From an uncultured Acidobacteriaceae bacterium (GTDB taxonomy: Bacteria > Acidobacteriota > Terriglobia > Terriglobales > Acidobacteriaceae): a stretch of DNA of 37,762 bases. Positions 7,465-12,770 of this stretch are shown here, one piece after another (the stretch's first letter is position 1; every line of letters begins with the position of its first letter). The notes under the pieces are model-generated. The model searched no databases. It was not told the DNA's origin and saw only the letters and a program-made list of their open reading frames with translations. The translations under genes and the position numbers were made by a program. Location of the stretch: the NCBI GenBank assembly GCA_903904755.1, contig CAIVDV010000010.1, forward strand, positions 1 to 37,762, read 5' to 3'.

Positions 7465-7496
7465 CCCTGACCACTGATCACTGACCACTGGCCACT
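7465..7496. repeat. short intergenic repeat, copy 2, forming the stop of the PAQR gene
   Basis: CCCTGACCACTGATCACTGACCACTGGCCACT contains the copy-1 string at 571-588 with an internal 14-bp expansion of TGACCACTGATCAC type. On the minus strand the repeat encodes the last residues (ASGQ) and the TGA stop of the hemolysin III-family gene, so the repeat defines that protein's end. Confidence 0.5.
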
Positions 7497-8131
7497 CGCA
7501 CTCTCGCCACATACCCCAGCACCGCAACATAATGCGCGACACTTCCCGCCAGCACAAACACGTGCCACAGCGCATGGAAATACCTCAGCCGGTCCAGCGC
7601 AAAAAACAAAATCCCCAGCGTATACGCCGCCCCGCCCAGCGCAATCCACCCCACTCCATGCCATCCCAGCGCCCCCACCATCGGCCGCACCGCCACCACC
7701 CCCACCCAGCCCATCCCCAGGTACACCAGCGCTGAGGCCACCTCAAACCGCCCCACCGCCACGCTCTTGAAAATCACCCCCGCCACCGCCAGCGTCCACA
7801 CCACGCCAAACAGCCACCACCCCGTCGCTCCCCGCAGCGACACCAGCGTAAACGGCGTATACGTCCCGGCAATCAGCAGATAAATCGCCGCATGGTCCAG
7901 CACCTGGAAGACATGCCGCGCCCGCGTCAGCACCAGCGAGTGATACAGCGTCGAGCACACATACACCAGCACCAGCGTCACCGCAAACACCGTGCAGCTC
8001 ACCAGTTGCCAGCCTGTCCCGTGCGAAGCCACGGCAATCAGATACACCGCGCCGCACACCGCCAGCACCGCGCCCACGCCATGCGTTACTGCGTTGGCTA
8101 CAATGTCGCCGACCTTCGGTCTCTCGGTCAC
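7478..8131 (-). CDS. hemolysin III / PAQR-family membrane protein
   Basis: A 217-residue integral membrane protein with seven hydrophobic segments. It carries the PAQR/hemolysin III signatures: STLYHS after the second or third helix, DHAAIYLLIAGTYTPF in the middle, and FHALWHVFVLAGSVAHY at the end. The conserved Ser, Asp and three His residues that bind zinc in this family are all present. Bacterial members are linked to membrane fatty-acid homeostasis (TrhA type); the haemolysin name is historical. The start codon is GTG at 8131. It lies 37 bases downstream of crcB and may share its transcript. Confidence 0.92.
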   Translation of the reverse strand: MTERPKVGDIVANAVTHGVGAVLAVCGAVYLIAVASHGTGWQLVSCTVFAVTLVLVYVCSTLYHSLVLTRARHVFQVLDHAAIYLLIAGTYTPFTLVSLRGATGWWLFGVVWTLAVAGVIFKSVAVGRFEVASALVYLGMGWVGVVAVRPMVGALGWHGVGWIALGGAAYTLGILFFALDRLRYFHALWHVFVLAGSVAHYVAVLGYVARVRVASGQ

Positions 8132-8168: not shown

Positions 8169-8543
8169 CTAGCCCAGCCAGTCGCCCAGCCGCGCCCCTG
8201 CCCATACCGCGATAAACCCCGCCACCACGCTGCCTGCCAGATACAGCGCCGAGGTCAAAAAGTACCCGGCCCGCACCGTCATCAGAGCATCCCACTCAAA
8301 CGTGGAAAACGTGCTGTACGCGCCAATAAACCCCACCGGAATCAGAAACCGGAAAGCCGGGTCCAGGCTCGACCGCTTGCCCAGCCACTCCATCACAAAA
8401 CCGATCACCACGCACGCCGTCATGTTCACCACAAACGTGCCCCACGGAAAGCGGCTCTGCACCCGCGTCCCTACCGCACTGCCAACCCAGTAGCGCGCCA
8501 TGGAGCCCAGTGCCCCACCCAGCGCAATGTACAGGTATTTCAC
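8169..8543 (-). CDS. crcB: fluoride channel CrcB/FluC
   Basis: A 124-residue protein with four hydrophobic segments, the normal size for the dual-topology fluoride channel. Visible family motifs are GGALGSMARYW at the N-terminus, GTFVVNMTACVVIGF in helix 2 with the conserved Asn, and GFIGAYSTFSTFEWD, which contains the Phe-box and the Na+-site break in helix 3. It exports F- from the cytoplasm. The start is GTG at 8543 with GGGGAGAGAG upstream. I looked for a crcB (fluoride) riboswitch in the 100 bases upstream and did not find its conserved core. Confidence 0.93.
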   Translation of the reverse strand: MKYLYIALGGALGSMARYWVGSAVGTRVQSRFPWGTFVVNMTACVVIGFVMEWLGKRSSLDPAFRFLIPVGFIGAYSTFSTFEWDALMTVRAGYFLTSALYLAGSVVAGFIAVWAGARLGDWLG

Positions 8544-8646: not shown

Positions 8647-10023
8647 CTACCTCCGCGCCGTCGTCACCTTGTCCCCGCCCGGATTCACATGCGCGTTCAG
8701 GTAGTCCGTCAGGTCAATCACATCCTGCTTGGTGCCCACCATCGGCGGCATAAACTTCCGGTAAGGCGAGTCCGCCTTGTACTCATGCAGCATCGTCACA
8801 AAGTTCTGGATATTCGCCCGGTCGCGCCCGGCCATCAGGTGCTTCATCGCGCGATACCCGTTCATCGTGTGGCAGCTTCCGCACTCCCCGCGGTAAATCG
8901 CCTCGCCCCGCGAGTAGTTCGTCGTCGCCCCGTTCCAAACCCACTGCGAGTTCGCCAGGTACCCGGTCTCATTCAGCTTCGGCACATAGCTCACCCGCAC
9001 TCCATTCGAGTACATGTGGTTGCCAATCACAAATGGCTTGCGCAGCATCTCGCGCGCATACTCGCCAGATCCCGTCGCCACCAGCGCCAGCAGCAGCACC
9101 GCCACCGCATGGCCCAGCGTAAACTCCAGCGGCGTCCGGTAGGCCAGGAAGTACGCCACCCCGATAATCGTCGCCGAGGTCAGCACGATAATCAGCGCAA
9201 TCCGCGTCACCTGCGAGAACGTCCCCGATCCAATCGTGTCAATGCCCAGGCTCAGCAGCGCCCGCTGCGTATCCGGAACCATCCACAGGTACCACACCAG
9301 CAGAAACGGCGTCGCCACAAACGACGGCACCAGCCACTTCACGCTCCACTTCACCAGGCTCGCCTTCAGGTCCGGCTGCTCTTCGCCATCAATCCGGCTC
9401 GACGTAATCAGCGCCCAAATGCCCGCCAGCGACGTGCAAACCCCGGCCCGCATCAGCAGGCTCGGCCAGTACGTCGGGTTAAAGAAGGCGTTCCAGAACT
9501 TGCTCGCCTCCGCTCCCGTTCCCGCCACCGCCAGCCACGTCCCGCCCGGCGTCAGCATAAACGCCAGAATGCCGTTGATAATCACCAGCGTCGCCACCGA
9601 TGCGCCCGCATACACCCAGCCCACCTTCAAGTGCAGCTTCGGGTCAATCCGGTTCCACGTGTAGTAGTACACCGCAGCCGTCGTCAGCTCCACCATGAAG
9701 AAGACCCACTCAATTGCCCAGCCAAAGACGAAGTTGTGAATCAGCGTGCTCGTCGCCTCAGGATGCGTCAGCCCGATGGCAAACCAGATGCCCACGCCCG
9801 ATACCGTCCCAAAAACACCCGTCAAAATCAGGAAGAACTTCGAGTGGTCCACCAGTTGCGCCAGCCAGTCCTCGCGCCCTTCCTTGTACGCCTTGCGCTC
9901 CGCTATCGGCAAATACAGCCCGCCGCCCACCGCAAACTGCGAAATCATCACGTGGAAGATGGCAATCATGCCAATCACCCACCCCGACCCGATATGCGGA
10001 ATTTCCCAGAATGGATAGTTCAT
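8647..10023 (-). CDS. CydA-like bd-type membrane subunit with C-terminal cytochrome c domain
   Basis: A 458-residue protein. The N-terminal 350 residues resemble subunit I of the cytochrome bd superfamily: His24 in MIAIFHVMISQF matches the conserved heme-b histidine, and WAIEWVFFMVELTTAAVYYY carries the paired glutamates of the bd core. The quinol-binding loop motif GRQPW of canonical CydA is absent. Residues about 375-450 form a class I cytochrome c domain with CGSCH and a likely Met ligand in KFMPPM. It closes a four-gene operon with a Rieske/cytochrome b pair, so it probably takes electrons from that complex through its own heme c rather than from quinol. Whether it reduces oxygen is not known from sequence. 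It matches the bd-like proteins found beside bc-type complexes. Confidence 0.8.
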   Translation of the reverse strand: MNYPFWEIPHIGSGWVIGMIAIFHVMISQFAVGGGLYLPIAERKAYKEGREDWLAQLVDHSKFFLILTGVFGTVSGVGIWFAIGLTHPEATSTLIHNFVFGWAIEWVFFMVELTTAAVYYYTWNRIDPKLHLKVGWVYAGASVATLVIINGILAFMLTPGGTWLAVAGTGAEASKFWNAFFNPTYWPSLLMRAGVCTSLAGIWALITSSRIDGEEQPDLKASLVKWSVKWLVPSFVATPFLLVWYLWMVPDTQRALLSLGIDTIGSGTFSQVTRIALIIVLTSATIIGVAYFLAYRTPLEFTLGHAVAVLLLALVATGSGEYAREMLRKPFVIGNHMYSNGVRVSYVPKLNETGYLANSQWVWNGATTNYSRGEAIYRGECGSCHTMNGYRAMKHLMAGRDRANIQNFVTMLHEYKADSPYRKFMPPMVGTKQDVIDLTDYLNAHVNPGGDKVTTARR

Positions 10024-10069
10024 CGAATCACTCTCTCGTGCCTTCGCTTCGTGCCACCGGCCTCACAGC

Positions 10070-11158
10070 CTAGCGCACCGTCCAGTAACCAATCGCCGTC
10101 GTCGCCACCAGCAGAAACACCGCCAGCAAACCGAAATAATGTGCATTCCGCGCCCGCTCTCCACGCTCGCGGCTGGTGTCATAAAACGGAATCAACACCC
10201 AGATCGCGATCCCCAGCGTGAAGATCAGCAGTCCGGCAATCTCCCCGAACTCGCCCGGCAGCCAGTTGCCCAGCAGCTTCAGCATCTCGAACGGGCTCAT
10301 GAAGTACCACTCCGGGTGAATCCCCAAAGGAGCCGGCTTCAGCGAATCCGCCTGGTTGCCCAGCTCCCACGGAAACACATGCGCCAGAACCGCCAATATA
10401 TTCAGCGAAACCAGCCACAGCGCCATATCCTTCACCAGAAAATTCGGGAAGAACGGCACACTCCGCCGCGCCATCGGCGGCTTCTCTTCCTCGCTCGGCG
10501 GAATCGCATTCCCGTGCCTCTGCACCAGCCACAGATGGAAGCCCAGCAGCGGCAGGAAGATTGCCGGCAGCACCACCACATGCAGCGCAAAGAACCGCTG
10601 CACCGTGAATTCGCTCACGTCCGGCCCGCCCCGCAGCATATTCGCAATCCCCTGCCCGATAAACGGAATCGCGGCCGGGATCTGCAAACCCACCTTGGTC
10701 GCAAAGTAGCTCAGCTCATCCATCGGCAGCAGATACCCGCTGAACCCAAACACCGTCGCCACTCCCAGCAGCGCCATCCCGCTCAGCCACCCAAACTCAC
10801 GCGGCTTGCGGTACGCCTTCATGAAGAAGACCGAGAACATGTGCACAAAAATGGCAAAGATAAACAGATTCGCTGACCACGAGTGCGCCGACCGAATCAG
10901 CCACCCGAAGTGCATCTGGAAGTTGATCTGCCGCACACTCTCGTACGCATCCGCGCCCGGCCGGTAGTACACCAGCAGCAGCACGCCGGTAAAGCACTGC
11001 ACCAGGAACAGAAACAGCGAAATCCCGCCCCAGTAATACCAGAACGAGTGCTCATGCACCGGCACCCGCTTCTTGCGCGCAAATGCCGCAATCTCCCGCA
11101 GTCCGAGCCGCTCATCCACCCATTCGAAAAGAGAGCTTGTCATCGTCTTCGTCGTCAT
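10070..11158 (-). CDS. cytochrome b (b6-type, fused b6/subunit IV)
   Basis: A 362-residue integral membrane protein. Two histidine pairs for the two b hemes lie in the N-terminal bundle: SAH...FVH with 13 residues between and ALH...GFH with 14 between. The second spacing is that of b6 rather than mitochondrial cytochrome b. The quinol-oxidation motif PEWY is in GIHPEWYFMSPFEMLKLL. The subunit IV region follows without a break. It forms the quinol:acceptor core with the Rieske protein encoded 14 bases upstream. The start is the ATG at 11158 with GGACGAGGA just upstream; an ATG at 11143 is also possible. Confidence 0.92.
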   Translation of the reverse strand: MTTKTMTSSLFEWVDERLGLREIAAFARKKRVPVHEHSFWYYWGGISLFLFLVQCFTGVLLLVYYRPGADAYESVRQINFQMHFGWLIRSAHSWSANLFIFAIFVHMFSVFFMKAYRKPREFGWLSGMALLGVATVFGFSGYLLPMDELSYFATKVGLQIPAAIPFIGQGIANMLRGGPDVSEFTVQRFFALHVVVLPAIFLPLLGFHLWLVQRHGNAIPPSEEEKPPMARRSVPFFPNFLVKDMALWLVSLNILAVLAHVFPWELGNQADSLKPAPLGIHPEWYFMSPFEMLKLLGNWLPGEFGEIAGLLIFTLGIAIWVLIPFYDTSRERGERARNAHYFGLLAVFLLVATTAIGYWTVR

Positions 11159-11172
11159 TCCTCGTCCCTTTC

Positions 11173-11658
11173 CTACGCCCGGGAAACCTGCACGCCGGCA
11201 TCTGTCACCGCCACCTTGTACGCCTTCAGTGGCTTCGGCGGCGGTCCGCTCACATTCGCCCCGGTGCGCGGGTCATACACCCCGCCGTGGCAGGCACAGT
11301 GGATTCGCTTCTGCTCCGGCTCATACTGCACCGTGCAGCCCAGGTGCGTGCAAACCGCCGTAAACGAGACCCACGTCCCGTCCTCGTGGTGAATCAGCAA
11401 CGCCGGCGAAGGGCCGAACTTGAACATCAGCACACTGCCCGCAGCCAGCTTCTGCGCGTCCTTCAGCATCACTTCCGTAATCGCCGTCGCGCTCAGCGCC
11501 ATCTCCACCGGCGACGCCAGATACCGGTAAATCGGATACGCCAGAGCCACCGTGTAGGCCAGCCCAGCCGCACCCGCCGCAGCCAGAAATATCCGCCGCG
11601 TCAGCTTGTCGTCCACCTTCTCAACCAGGGAAACCTCGTGTACAGAATCGGTACTCAT
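11173..11658 (-). CDS. Rieske iron-sulfur protein
   Basis: A 161-residue protein with a membrane anchor near residues 25-45 (IFLAAAGAAGLAYTVALAYPIYRYL) preceded by a TRR motif, which suggests twin-arginine export. The 2Fe-2S cluster motifs are CTHLGC and CACHGG, with two Cys and two His as expected, and a disulfide pair is available in the same loops. It carries electrons from quinol oxidation to a cytochrome c domain. I chose the ATG at 11658 because it overlaps the stop of the upstream bd-like gene (ATGA at 11655-11658). The longer frame reads back through that gene. Confidence 0.93.
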   Translation of the reverse strand: MSTDSVHEVSLVEKVDDKLTRRIFLAAAGAAGLAYTVALAYPIYRYLASPVEMALSATAITEVMLKDAQKLAAGSVLMFKFGPSPALLIHHEDGTWVSFTAVCTHLGCTVQYEPEQKRIHCACHGGVYDPRTGANVSGPPPKPLKAYKVAVTDAGVQVSRA

Positions 11659-12770
11659 GCCGCTGCACTCTCCATCACTTTCTTCGCTCGCGCCACTACT
11701 GACACCAGCCATCCCACCACGCCCAGGCTGGCCACAAACAACACCAGGAACAGCCCCACCACGCCCCAGTTGGTCACCACCACCCGGTTCCACACATCAA
11801 AGCCCTTGCTCAGCAGCGTCAGGTCGCGCACCGCGTCCCGGTACACCGTCAGCGATGCCAGCGCCACAAATCCCGCCAGCGCACCCGCCCAGCCCAGCCA
11901 ACCGGCAGTCACCCGGCCAAATCCAGCCACCGCGCCCACCGCAACCATCAGCACCACGCCCGCCAGCCACCCGTAAGCGCCCAGCCCGAACCAGTGATAC
12001 AGCGGATGCGTCTGCAACCCCTGTTTCACCGCATCCGGCTGCACCCGCGCCGCCCAAATCCCGGCCGCCAGGTACACCGCGCCAAATACGACCGCCAGTT
12101 TGCCGCCCACCCCGGCCAGGAACTTCTTGTCCCGCGCCGCAAAGGTGCTTCGCCCCGCCAGGTAAATCATCCACAGCCCGCCAAACGCAAACCCGCCGGC
12201 CACAAACAGCAGCCACCGCGGCGTCAGCGTCGGGTCGCCGGTGGGCAGATAAACGCCCGCAGCCGAGGCCGAGTACATTTTCAGCCACTCCTCCGGCCGC
12301 AGCATCAGCGTCATGTTCGTCGAAAGAATCCGCGCAATCGCCCCGCACAGCAGCCACGCCAGCAGACCCACATGCCAGCCCGCCTTGCCCGCCTCCAGCC
12401 GCCCGCTGAACTGGTACAGCAGCCAGTACGCCAGCGTCAGCAGCCCGATAATCGCAATCCAGTACGCGCCAATCAGCACGCTGCTCGTATACAACGCCCG
12501 CCCGTACAGCACCTGCGCAAACAGCAGCGGCGGCACTCCCAGGTTGATCACATACGTCATCACCACCGTCAGCCGCCGGGCCAGCGCCCGCGCTGCCGTC
12601 TGGCTCTCCGGCGTGCCCCGGAACAGGCTCAGCAGCACCGCCAGCAGCAAACCGCCCAGCAGCATCTCCACCGCCAGAAAATGCAGCGATAACGTAACGA
12701 TATGAAGCAGTTTGAAAAGCCAGATGGGAGCTGGCAAAGGAATGGGATCAACAGTTGGAAATTGTGGCAT
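11655..12770 (-). CDS. bd-like integral membrane subunit, first gene of the respiratory operon
   Basis: A 371-residue protein with about nine hydrophobic segments. The N-terminal pattern WLFKLLHIVTLSLHFLAVE, with His23 and His30 near the start of the first helix, resembles the heme-b helix of bd-superfamily subunits. There is no CXXCH and no Rieske or cytochrome b motif. I infer a second bd-like subunit that pairs with the CydA-like/cytochrome c protein at the other end of the operon. A simple membrane scaffold for the Rieske/cytochrome b complex is the alternative. It starts at ATG 12770 and is coupled to the Rieske gene by an ATGA overlap. A CRP/FNR-type palindrome lies 76 bases upstream. 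Confidence 0.65.
   Translation of the reverse strand: MPQFPTVDPIPLPAPIWLFKLLHIVTLSLHFLAVEMLLGGLLLAVLLSLFRGTPESQTAARALARRLTVVMTYVINLGVPPLLFAQVLYGRALYTSSVLIGAYWIAIIGLLTLAYWLLYQFSGRLEAGKAGWHVGLLAWLLCGAIARILSTNMTLMLRPEEWLKMYSASAAGVYLPTGDPTLTPRWLLFVAGGFAFGGLWMIYLAGRSTFAARDKKFLAGVGGKLAVVFGAVYLAAGIWAARVQPDAVKQGLQTHPLYHWFGLGAYGWLAGVVLMVAVGAVAGFGRVTAGWLGWAGALAGFVALASLTVYRDAVRDLTLLSKGFDVWNRVVVTNWGVVGLFLVLFVASLGVVGWLVSVVARAKKVMESAAA

Follow-up and report, generated by a model that had tools for sequence, protein, structure and literature searches.

The gene cluster

The gene cluster considered here is a candidate respiratory operon in which the genes for a Rieske protein and a cytochrome b stand between two genes related to cydA, the gene for the catalytic subunit of cytochrome bd. 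It lies in a stretch of 37,762 nucleotides (the window), which comprises positions 1-37,762 of contig CAIVDV010000010.1 in assembly GCA_903904755.1 from an uncultured Acidobacteriaceae bacterium, a genome of 4.22 Mb in 83 contigs. The four adjoining genes occupy window positions 12770-8647 on the minus strand in the order A, Rieske, cytochrome b, B. The coordinates and order proposed in a first-pass annotation made from the sequence, namely a bd-like subunit, a Rieske protein, a cytochrome b and a CydA-like protein with a CXXCH motif, were confirmed. The genes are as follows.

11655..12770, minus strand: subunit A, a degenerate CydA paralogue (CydA'-like), 371 amino acids.
11173..11658, minus strand: Rieske iron-sulfur protein, 161 amino acids, with an N-terminal RR-containing anchor and the boxes CTHLGC...CACHGG.
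10070..11158, minus strand: b6-type cytochrome b with a C-terminal (subunit IV-like) part, 362 amino acids, with PEWY and 14 residues between H193 and H208.
8647..10023, minus strand: subunit B, a CydA-like core without the Q-loop, with a C-terminal monoheme cytochrome c domain, 458 amino acids.

The end of the gene for A and the start of that for the Rieske protein overlap by ATGA, the Rieske start being most likely the ATG at 11658 (161 amino acids) and not the GTG of a longer open reading frame (ORF) of 206 amino acids. A promoter scan of the cluster found no sigma-70-like site, and a terminator scan gave 8 terminator-like sites against 5.6 (standard deviation 2.6) in shuffled sequences.

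The identity of the two central genes was established with profile searches. The Rieske protein matched Pfam PF00355 at 3.1e-13 (on the longer ORF) and in NCBIfam gave only matches below the cut-off. The cytochrome b matched PF13631 (8.6e-44), PF00033 (2.8e-41) and PF00032 (1.4e-9), its best NCBIfam match being cytochrome b6 (2.7e-61, below cut-off). The Rieske boxes were found in all 36 related loci whose match was of sufficient length, 32 with the strict motif and four with CTHLAC...CACHGG. Among the 43 related loci in which B is linked to these genes (hereafter bc-linked), PEWY was present in 43/43 cytochrome b sequences, the 14-residue His spacing in 39/43 and a 13-residue N-terminal spacing in 42/43. 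As motifs, the hallmarks of cytochrome bc and b6f complexes (PEWY, the heme His pairs and the Rieske motif) are present in the cluster.

Subunit B retains a bd-type core

Subunit B matched the Pfam family Cyt_bd_oxida_I (PF01654) over residues 15-191 at 7e-20, with 71.4 bits against a cut-off of 26.2; its NCBIfam matches were all below cut-off. An AlphaFold model of B, with a mean predicted local distance difference test (pLDDT) of 81 and weak at both ends and around residues 262-269, had CydA chains as its best fold matches in the PDB. By CydA fold and sequence profile B is a member of the cytochrome bd oxygen reductase superfamily.

The residues of E. coli CydA offer a reference for B. In that protein H19 and E445 are the high-spin heme ligands, H186 together with M393 ligates heme b558 and E99/E107 form a proton path; the GRQPW motif follows the heme b595 ligand E445. 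For comparison 82 B sequences were used, 43 of them bc-linked and 39 non-linked, after removal of repeat loci, of nine further rows that showed no difference in the first 350 residues and of rows that were truncated at the start or no longer than ~400 amino acids (L029, L031, L032, L033, L035); L020 was put with the non-linked set although its contig has no upstream DNA. Alignment of these 82 with 15 canonical CydA sequences by hhalign scored 96% (E 1.9e-9) and paired residues of B with those of E. coli as H24-H19, E105-E99, E112-E107, R192-H186, E321-W441, E325-E445 and R328-R448. The equivalents of the active-site residues lie in the window as follows.

9952..9954, minus strand: B H24, equivalent of E. 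coli CydA H19, in 82/82 B; mapped by hhalign.
9688..9711, minus strand: B E105 to E112, equivalents of E. coli E99 and E107, both Glu in 82/82; mapped by hhalign with a one-residue gap between.
9040..9051, minus strand: B E325-M-L-R328, equivalents of E. coli E445 and R448, both in 82/82; mapped by hhalign and by HMMER to 5doq.

The heme-b His and paired Glu that the first-pass annotation had recognised in this protein (H24, E105 and E112) are therefore invariant. The same annotation had regarded GRQPW as a quinol motif that B lacked, and this did not hold. GRQPW is not the quinol site, and in a HMMER alignment to the Geobacillus structure 5doq E325, R328 and P330 of B fall on the E, R and P of EVGRQPW, so that the core is retained as E325-M-L-R328-K-P330-F. 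What B lacks is the quinol-binding Q-loop: in the hhalign comparison of the 82 B with canonical CydA, E. coli residues ~240 to 390 have hardly any counterpart. The heme b558 His (H186) was also absent, Arg192 being in its place in 82/82 B, and canonical W441 is Glu321 in 82/82. A mapping of heme ligands had been suggested as a check, and it came out in favour of the active site and against heme b558; the outcome that had been held to count against the annotation, loss of the heme-b595/d ligands from both bd-like subunits, was not seen, the ligands being present in B. As aligned, B retains the residues of the two-heme site and is without the b558 His and the canonical quinol site.

Eight membrane helices were read by us in the model of B. 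CydA has one helix more than this and a periplasmic N-terminus; eight helices would place the heme c domain of B on the N-terminal side, which in CydA is the periplasm. The Q-loop of canonical enzymes lies between helices six and seven (PMC9846854).

The heme c domain of B

The C-terminal domain of B matched Pfam Cytochrom_C (PF00034) at 3.3e-4, just above cut-off, and carries the expected motif.

8869..8883, minus strand: heme c motif C381-G-S-C384-H385 of B; C381, C384, H385 and M425 in 82/82 B.

The axial Met is possibly M425. Exactly one CXXCH per B was found in 43/43 bc-linked loci and 1 to 8 in stand-alone B. A further CXXCH ORF occurs within 3 kb in 4/43 bc-linked loci, the window included; none of these four had a cytochrome c match in Pfam and one is a zinc-ribbon protein. 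No other cytochrome c or f gene was found beside the bc-linked operon in the 43 loci, for which the flanks were often only 1.5 kb. The genome that holds the window has two further cytochrome b genes, each then followed by a gene with 6 or 7 CXXCH, and a Rieske match adjoins only the first of them. By gene order, B occupies the cytochrome c position of the operon.

Subunit A

Subunit A had no Pfam or NCBIfam match at E <= 1, and a sequence search of the PDB returned no believable match (best E 0.22). Its AlphaFold model has a pLDDT of 91 and best PDB matches to CydA chains, with template modelling (TM) scores of 0.59-0.67 over the first ten. By hhalign A scored 64% (E 6.5e-5) against canonical CydA and 97% over 199 columns against B. 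That A is unrelated to CydA was rejected on the strength of the CydA-like fold and the alignment with B.

A was found for 65 of the 82 B (29/43 of those linked, many loci ending before A). H30 (codon 12683-12681), which aligns with E. coli H19, is present in 65/65 A. The position equivalent to H186 behaves differently in the two groups, being L188 in the window (codon 12209-12207) and His in stand-alone homologues: the His occurs in 36/36 stand-alone A and in 1/29 bc-linked A (locus L090 only), the other 28/29 having Leu, Phe, Met or Thr. No conserved Glu or Asp was found in A around the E99/E107 region. The place of E445 (D312 by hhalign of A with B) is Asp in 28/28 linked A with a letter there; the other 36 A have Asp (21), His (7), Ala (5), Phe (2) or Glu (1). 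A is thus degenerate yet keeps an acid at the E445 place, and it may hold a heme or bind something. A b558-like heme may be present in stand-alone A and may no longer have been needed once the Rieske protein could feed the heme c of B; the Met in an FMG motif of these A was weighed as a candidate for the second b558 ligand and dropped because it is not strictly conserved. The first gene had been called a bd-like subunit with the least certain role, and this stands in so far as A is a CydA-paralogous second subunit; the equivalents of E99/E107 and, in 28/29 bc-linked copies, the b558-type His are missing.

Conservation of gene order and distribution

A scan for close loci by peptide words of the window protein, which favours close kin, gave 36 loci. 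Two of these (L038 and L039, Desulfocapsaceae) are stand-alone B-A pairs, three (L020, L029, L033) are on contigs without upstream genes and L032 has only a partial cytochrome b and a broken B. The order A-Rieske-cytochrome b-B was found in 30/30 close loci with enough upstream DNA, including one Fimbriimonas and one Sumerlaeia contig (one metagenome contig each); A is in two pieces in L010 and L011, cytochrome b is in two pieces in L018 and B is incomplete in L031 and L035. This consistency led to the rejection of chance or an assembly effect as the origin of the gene order. Separation of the genes in related genomes, which had been named as an outcome that would tell against an operon, did not occur for the bc-linked clade, the four genes being together wherever enough DNA was present. 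Judged by B, the nearest named relatives are Acidobacteriaceae. Locus L025, Verrucomicrobia by label, also carries the operon; its B is placed among acidobacterial ones and a binning error is possible.

Wider scans revealed a broader and more uneven distribution; neighbouring genes in these were examined in the loci returned or fetched, mostly the best matches. In a sample of the phylum a B match at E <= 1e-10 was found in 105/396 genomes, and among the loci checked 11 genomes had the bc-linked order (the window and L090 counted in) and 21 loci were without it (L062-L080, L099, L100). In a sample of the taxonomic order 46/298 genomes had a B homologue (E <= 1e-60), irrespective of bc linkage, and the 13 new loci returned, which were among the best matches, all had cytochrome b adjoining B. 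In the phylum of L038 a B match at E <= 1e-60 was found in 49/297 genomes, with a Rieske or cytochrome b gene in 0/15 loci returned, at ~1.5 kb each side.

Downstream of the cluster in the window, Pfam identified a CrcB-like protein (8169-8543, minus strand) and a HlyIII family protein (7478-8131, minus strand).

Phylogeny of B and the stand-alone pairs

Phylogenetic analysis of 80 B sequences (a careful tree from which ECcydA, L099 and L100 were left out) placed the 43 bc-linked sequences on one side of a branch with support of 100/100, recovered in 100% of 200 bootstrap trees. A quick tree with an outgroup, in which branches are long, gave the bc-linked side a Shimodaira-Hasegawa-like approximate likelihood ratio test (SH-aLRT) value of 99. 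Since the bc-linked B form one side of so well supported a branch, a single origin of the link to the bc genes, with a stand-alone pair as the starting point, is most likely as far as the sequences indicate; the occurrence of B-A pairs without bc genes makes the link look like a derived state. At the level of gene linkage, the joining of a bc complex to bd-like proteins claimed in the first-pass annotation is consequently upheld for a single B clade and not for B-A pairs at large, which also occur without bc genes, as in a second pair of this very genome.

That second stand-alone pair, with two CXXCH, is on contig 15 (L040:6701-9429). Adjoining it on the other strand is a small ORF for a cytochrome c (Pfam Cytochrome_CBB3, 3.2e-15). 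In the loci checked, stand-alone pairs of the same phylum have B ahead of A, and in Desulfobacterota loci with 8 CXXCH A comes first wherever it was seen. Ten of the 15 loci returned from the phylum of L038 (L108, L109, L111-L118; Desulfosediminicola) have B homologues of 854-909 amino acids with 8 CXXCH, in which a bd-like core is fused to a multiheme part; an A gene lies beside 9/10.

One locus departs from the general pattern. L090 (genome G244) is bc-linked, its A has the H186-equivalent His and its B is the deepest linked one in the quick tree. In a quick tree of A, with long branches and an unsure placement, L090 A lies apart from the other linked A, and linked A needs two changes on that tree, which were put down to L090. 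L090 may be an intermediate or a second recruitment. Genome G783 (same genus) has five nearly full-length canonical CydA matches and a fragment.

A proposed electron route and its alternatives

It is rather probable, from the sequences, that the four genes encode one membrane complex, a quinol:oxygen oxidoreductase in which a bc part feeds a bd-type site via the heme c of B. Cytochrome b and the Rieske protein would oxidise quinol by a Q-cycle, and the Rieske cluster would reduce the single heme c fused to B, which would replace the usual cytochrome c subunit. From there electrons would pass directly to the bd-type two-heme site of B (ligands H24 and E325), where oxygen would be reduced with E105/E112 as the proton path. 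A, which probably has no catalytic role, would be the partner of B in the manner of CydB or CydA'. Heme occupancy, the path of electrons, oxygen as acceptor and physical assembly are all matters that we infer. A route from quinol through cytochrome b and Rieske to the heme c of B, the B site and oxygen gives the best fit because a cytochrome c gene and the Q-loop are missing and the active site is invariant. The similar route put forward in the first-pass annotation gains partial support from the invariant bd-core residues, the lack of a canonical quinol site, the finding of the only operon heme c in B and the association of Rieske and cytochrome b genes with a single B clade. A stronger version, for and against which the balance is level, is that the four proteins form an obligate respirasome: a Rieske/cytochrome b complex would have captured a bd-type oxygen site as its terminal acceptor, and the quinol site and b558-type heme would have been dropped, leaving one covalent heme c as the sole bridge.

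Several observations weigh against the proposed route. It is built on genes and on models of single subunits, of which that for B has weak parts. Glu321 in place of Trp441 makes the site of B differ from that of a true bd oxidase. Quinol might still bind to B or A despite the loss of the Q-loop, since an additional quinol site near heme b595 is described for the Mycobacterium tuberculosis enzyme (PMC9846854). The paralogue A, with no conserved Glu or Asp around E99/E107, is an internal control for drift that speaks for the route, yet it keeps Asp at the E445 place in 28/28 linked copies. In L090 the bc genes are linked and the His in A is present, so that linking and loss of the His are not strictly tied. 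The assignment of B to the cytochrome c position rests on comparison with one full bc operon, the other cytochrome b of the genome having no Rieske match beside it. The cluster is also patchy, as seen from the 46/298 genomes of the order with a B homologue at the stricter threshold, bc-linked or not. Finally, the genome has three other oxidase genes, two for COX1 (heme-copper) and one for a canonical CydA, so the cluster need not be essential for oxygen respiration. Reliance of the genome on this cluster alone was rejected on the same grounds, and the mention in the first-pass annotation of oxygen reduction without a heme-copper oxidase needs the correction that the genome does have such oxidases; the cluster is an additional respiratory branch and no substitute for heme-copper oxidases.

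Other explanations of the cluster can be offered. B and A might be a bd-type cytochrome c oxidase merely co-expressed with the Rieske protein and cytochrome b, electrons being carried by a soluble cytochrome c or passed by collision with no fixed supercomplex. Stand-alone B-A pairs with 1 to 8 CXXCH and without bc genes in the loci checked must receive electrons from elsewhere, and the small cytochrome c ORF that adjoins the pair on contig 15 would suit such a carrier; the bc-linked operon, however, has no cytochrome c gene beside it in 43 loci (flanks often only 1.5 kb) and B stands in the cytochrome c position, so that a separate oxidase is considered unlikely. It is quite improbable that B serves to anchor the cytochrome c of the bc complex in the membrane and does not reduce oxygen, with electrons going to other periplasmic acceptors. 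An anchor would have no need of H24, E105, E112, E325 and R328, which are present in 82/82 B from several phyla, even though the absence of the b558 ligand and Q-loop, the change of W441 to Glu and the loss of the His from most bc-linked A would be in keeping with one. Reduction of another small molecule such as nitric oxide or peroxide at the B site, with quinol electrons arriving via the bc part, is highly improbable: bd-type sites do react with both, but the Pfam-named downstream neighbours, CrcB and HlyIII, the only ones considered, give no hint of nitrogen oxide or peroxide metabolism.

Relation to known systems

The OR-C family of the bd superfamily (Murali et al. 2021) is said to have a CydA-like subunit without a quinol site and with a fused cytochrome c. 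In its sequence B would fit this definition, being CydA-like, without the quinol site and with a cytochrome c domain. The OR-C and OR-N reductases are, together with the Nitrospirales arrangement of alternative complex III and CydAA' described below, the nearest precedents for the cluster. It shares with these reductases a CydA-like core that has the active-site ligands but not the canonical quinol site, and a fused cytochrome c (reportedly the mark of OR-C), and its stand-alone homologues likewise pair B with A. It differs from them in that Rieske and cytochrome b genes stand between the two members of the pair and belong to the same operon, in having one heme c only and in the lack of the H186-equivalent His from most bc-linked A. 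Canonical cytochrome bd (CydAB) resembles B in fold and active-site residues, whereas here the Q-loop and H186 are absent, a heme c is added and the cluster has no CydB gene. In the actinobacterial bcc-aa3 system complex III forms a supercomplex with a heme-copper oxidase.

The families qOR, OR-C and OR-N have been named within the bd superfamily (PMC13189123) and OR-N likely uses cytochrome c (PMC10839748). In Nitrospirales the genes for an alternative complex III are directly followed by those of OR-N5 CydAA' (PMC12342949), so that, as here, a quinol-oxidising complex III is encoded beside a bd-superfamily reductase; it is of the Act type, not Rieske/cytochrome b, and no fused cytochrome c is mentioned in the part of that source drawn on. 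The same source describes petBC, the genes for Rieske and cytochrome b, next to that for the nitrite reductase ONR, again a terminal reductase to which they have been proposed to supply electrons, although ONR makes ammonia from nitrite and is outside the bd superfamily (PMC12342949). In Acidobacteria, superoperons join caa3 heme-copper oxidase with bc1 or alternative complex III (PMC8407424); these too have a quinol-oxidising complex and a terminal oxidase in one operon, the terminal site of the present cluster being of the bd superfamily and not heme-copper. A bd-like oxidase of Nitrospina gracilis resembles B in keeping heme b ligands and lacking quinol-binding residues, but has 14 predicted helices and adjoining nitrite oxidoreductase genes, and no fused cytochrome c is mentioned in the excerpt used (PMC3578206). 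Two further papers deal with bd-type or high-affinity oxidases and quinol-cytochrome c reductases and, in the parts used, mention no such operon (PMC10564751, PMC6018796). By title or the start of the abstract no paper on a bc-bd operon was found, a weak absence given that the key 2021 paper on the family was not covered. Each type of part is known; no study turned up in this search of the union of Rieske/cytochrome b with a bd-type site via a fused heme c.

By textbook stoichiometry such a chain would move ~two charges per electron, as against ~one for canonical cytochrome bd. If the proposed route is true, the cluster would provide a copper-free respiratory chain from quinol to oxygen in one complex, would yield roughly double the charge of cytochrome bd and would unite the coupling of a Q-cycle with an oxygen-reducing site that needs no copper. 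Such a complex would also put to the test the view that cytochrome c is the electron donor of bd-superfamily enzymes lacking a quinol site. For the way in which a supercomplex of this kind arises and sheds a redundant heme, natural comparisons are available in L090 and the stand-alone pairs.

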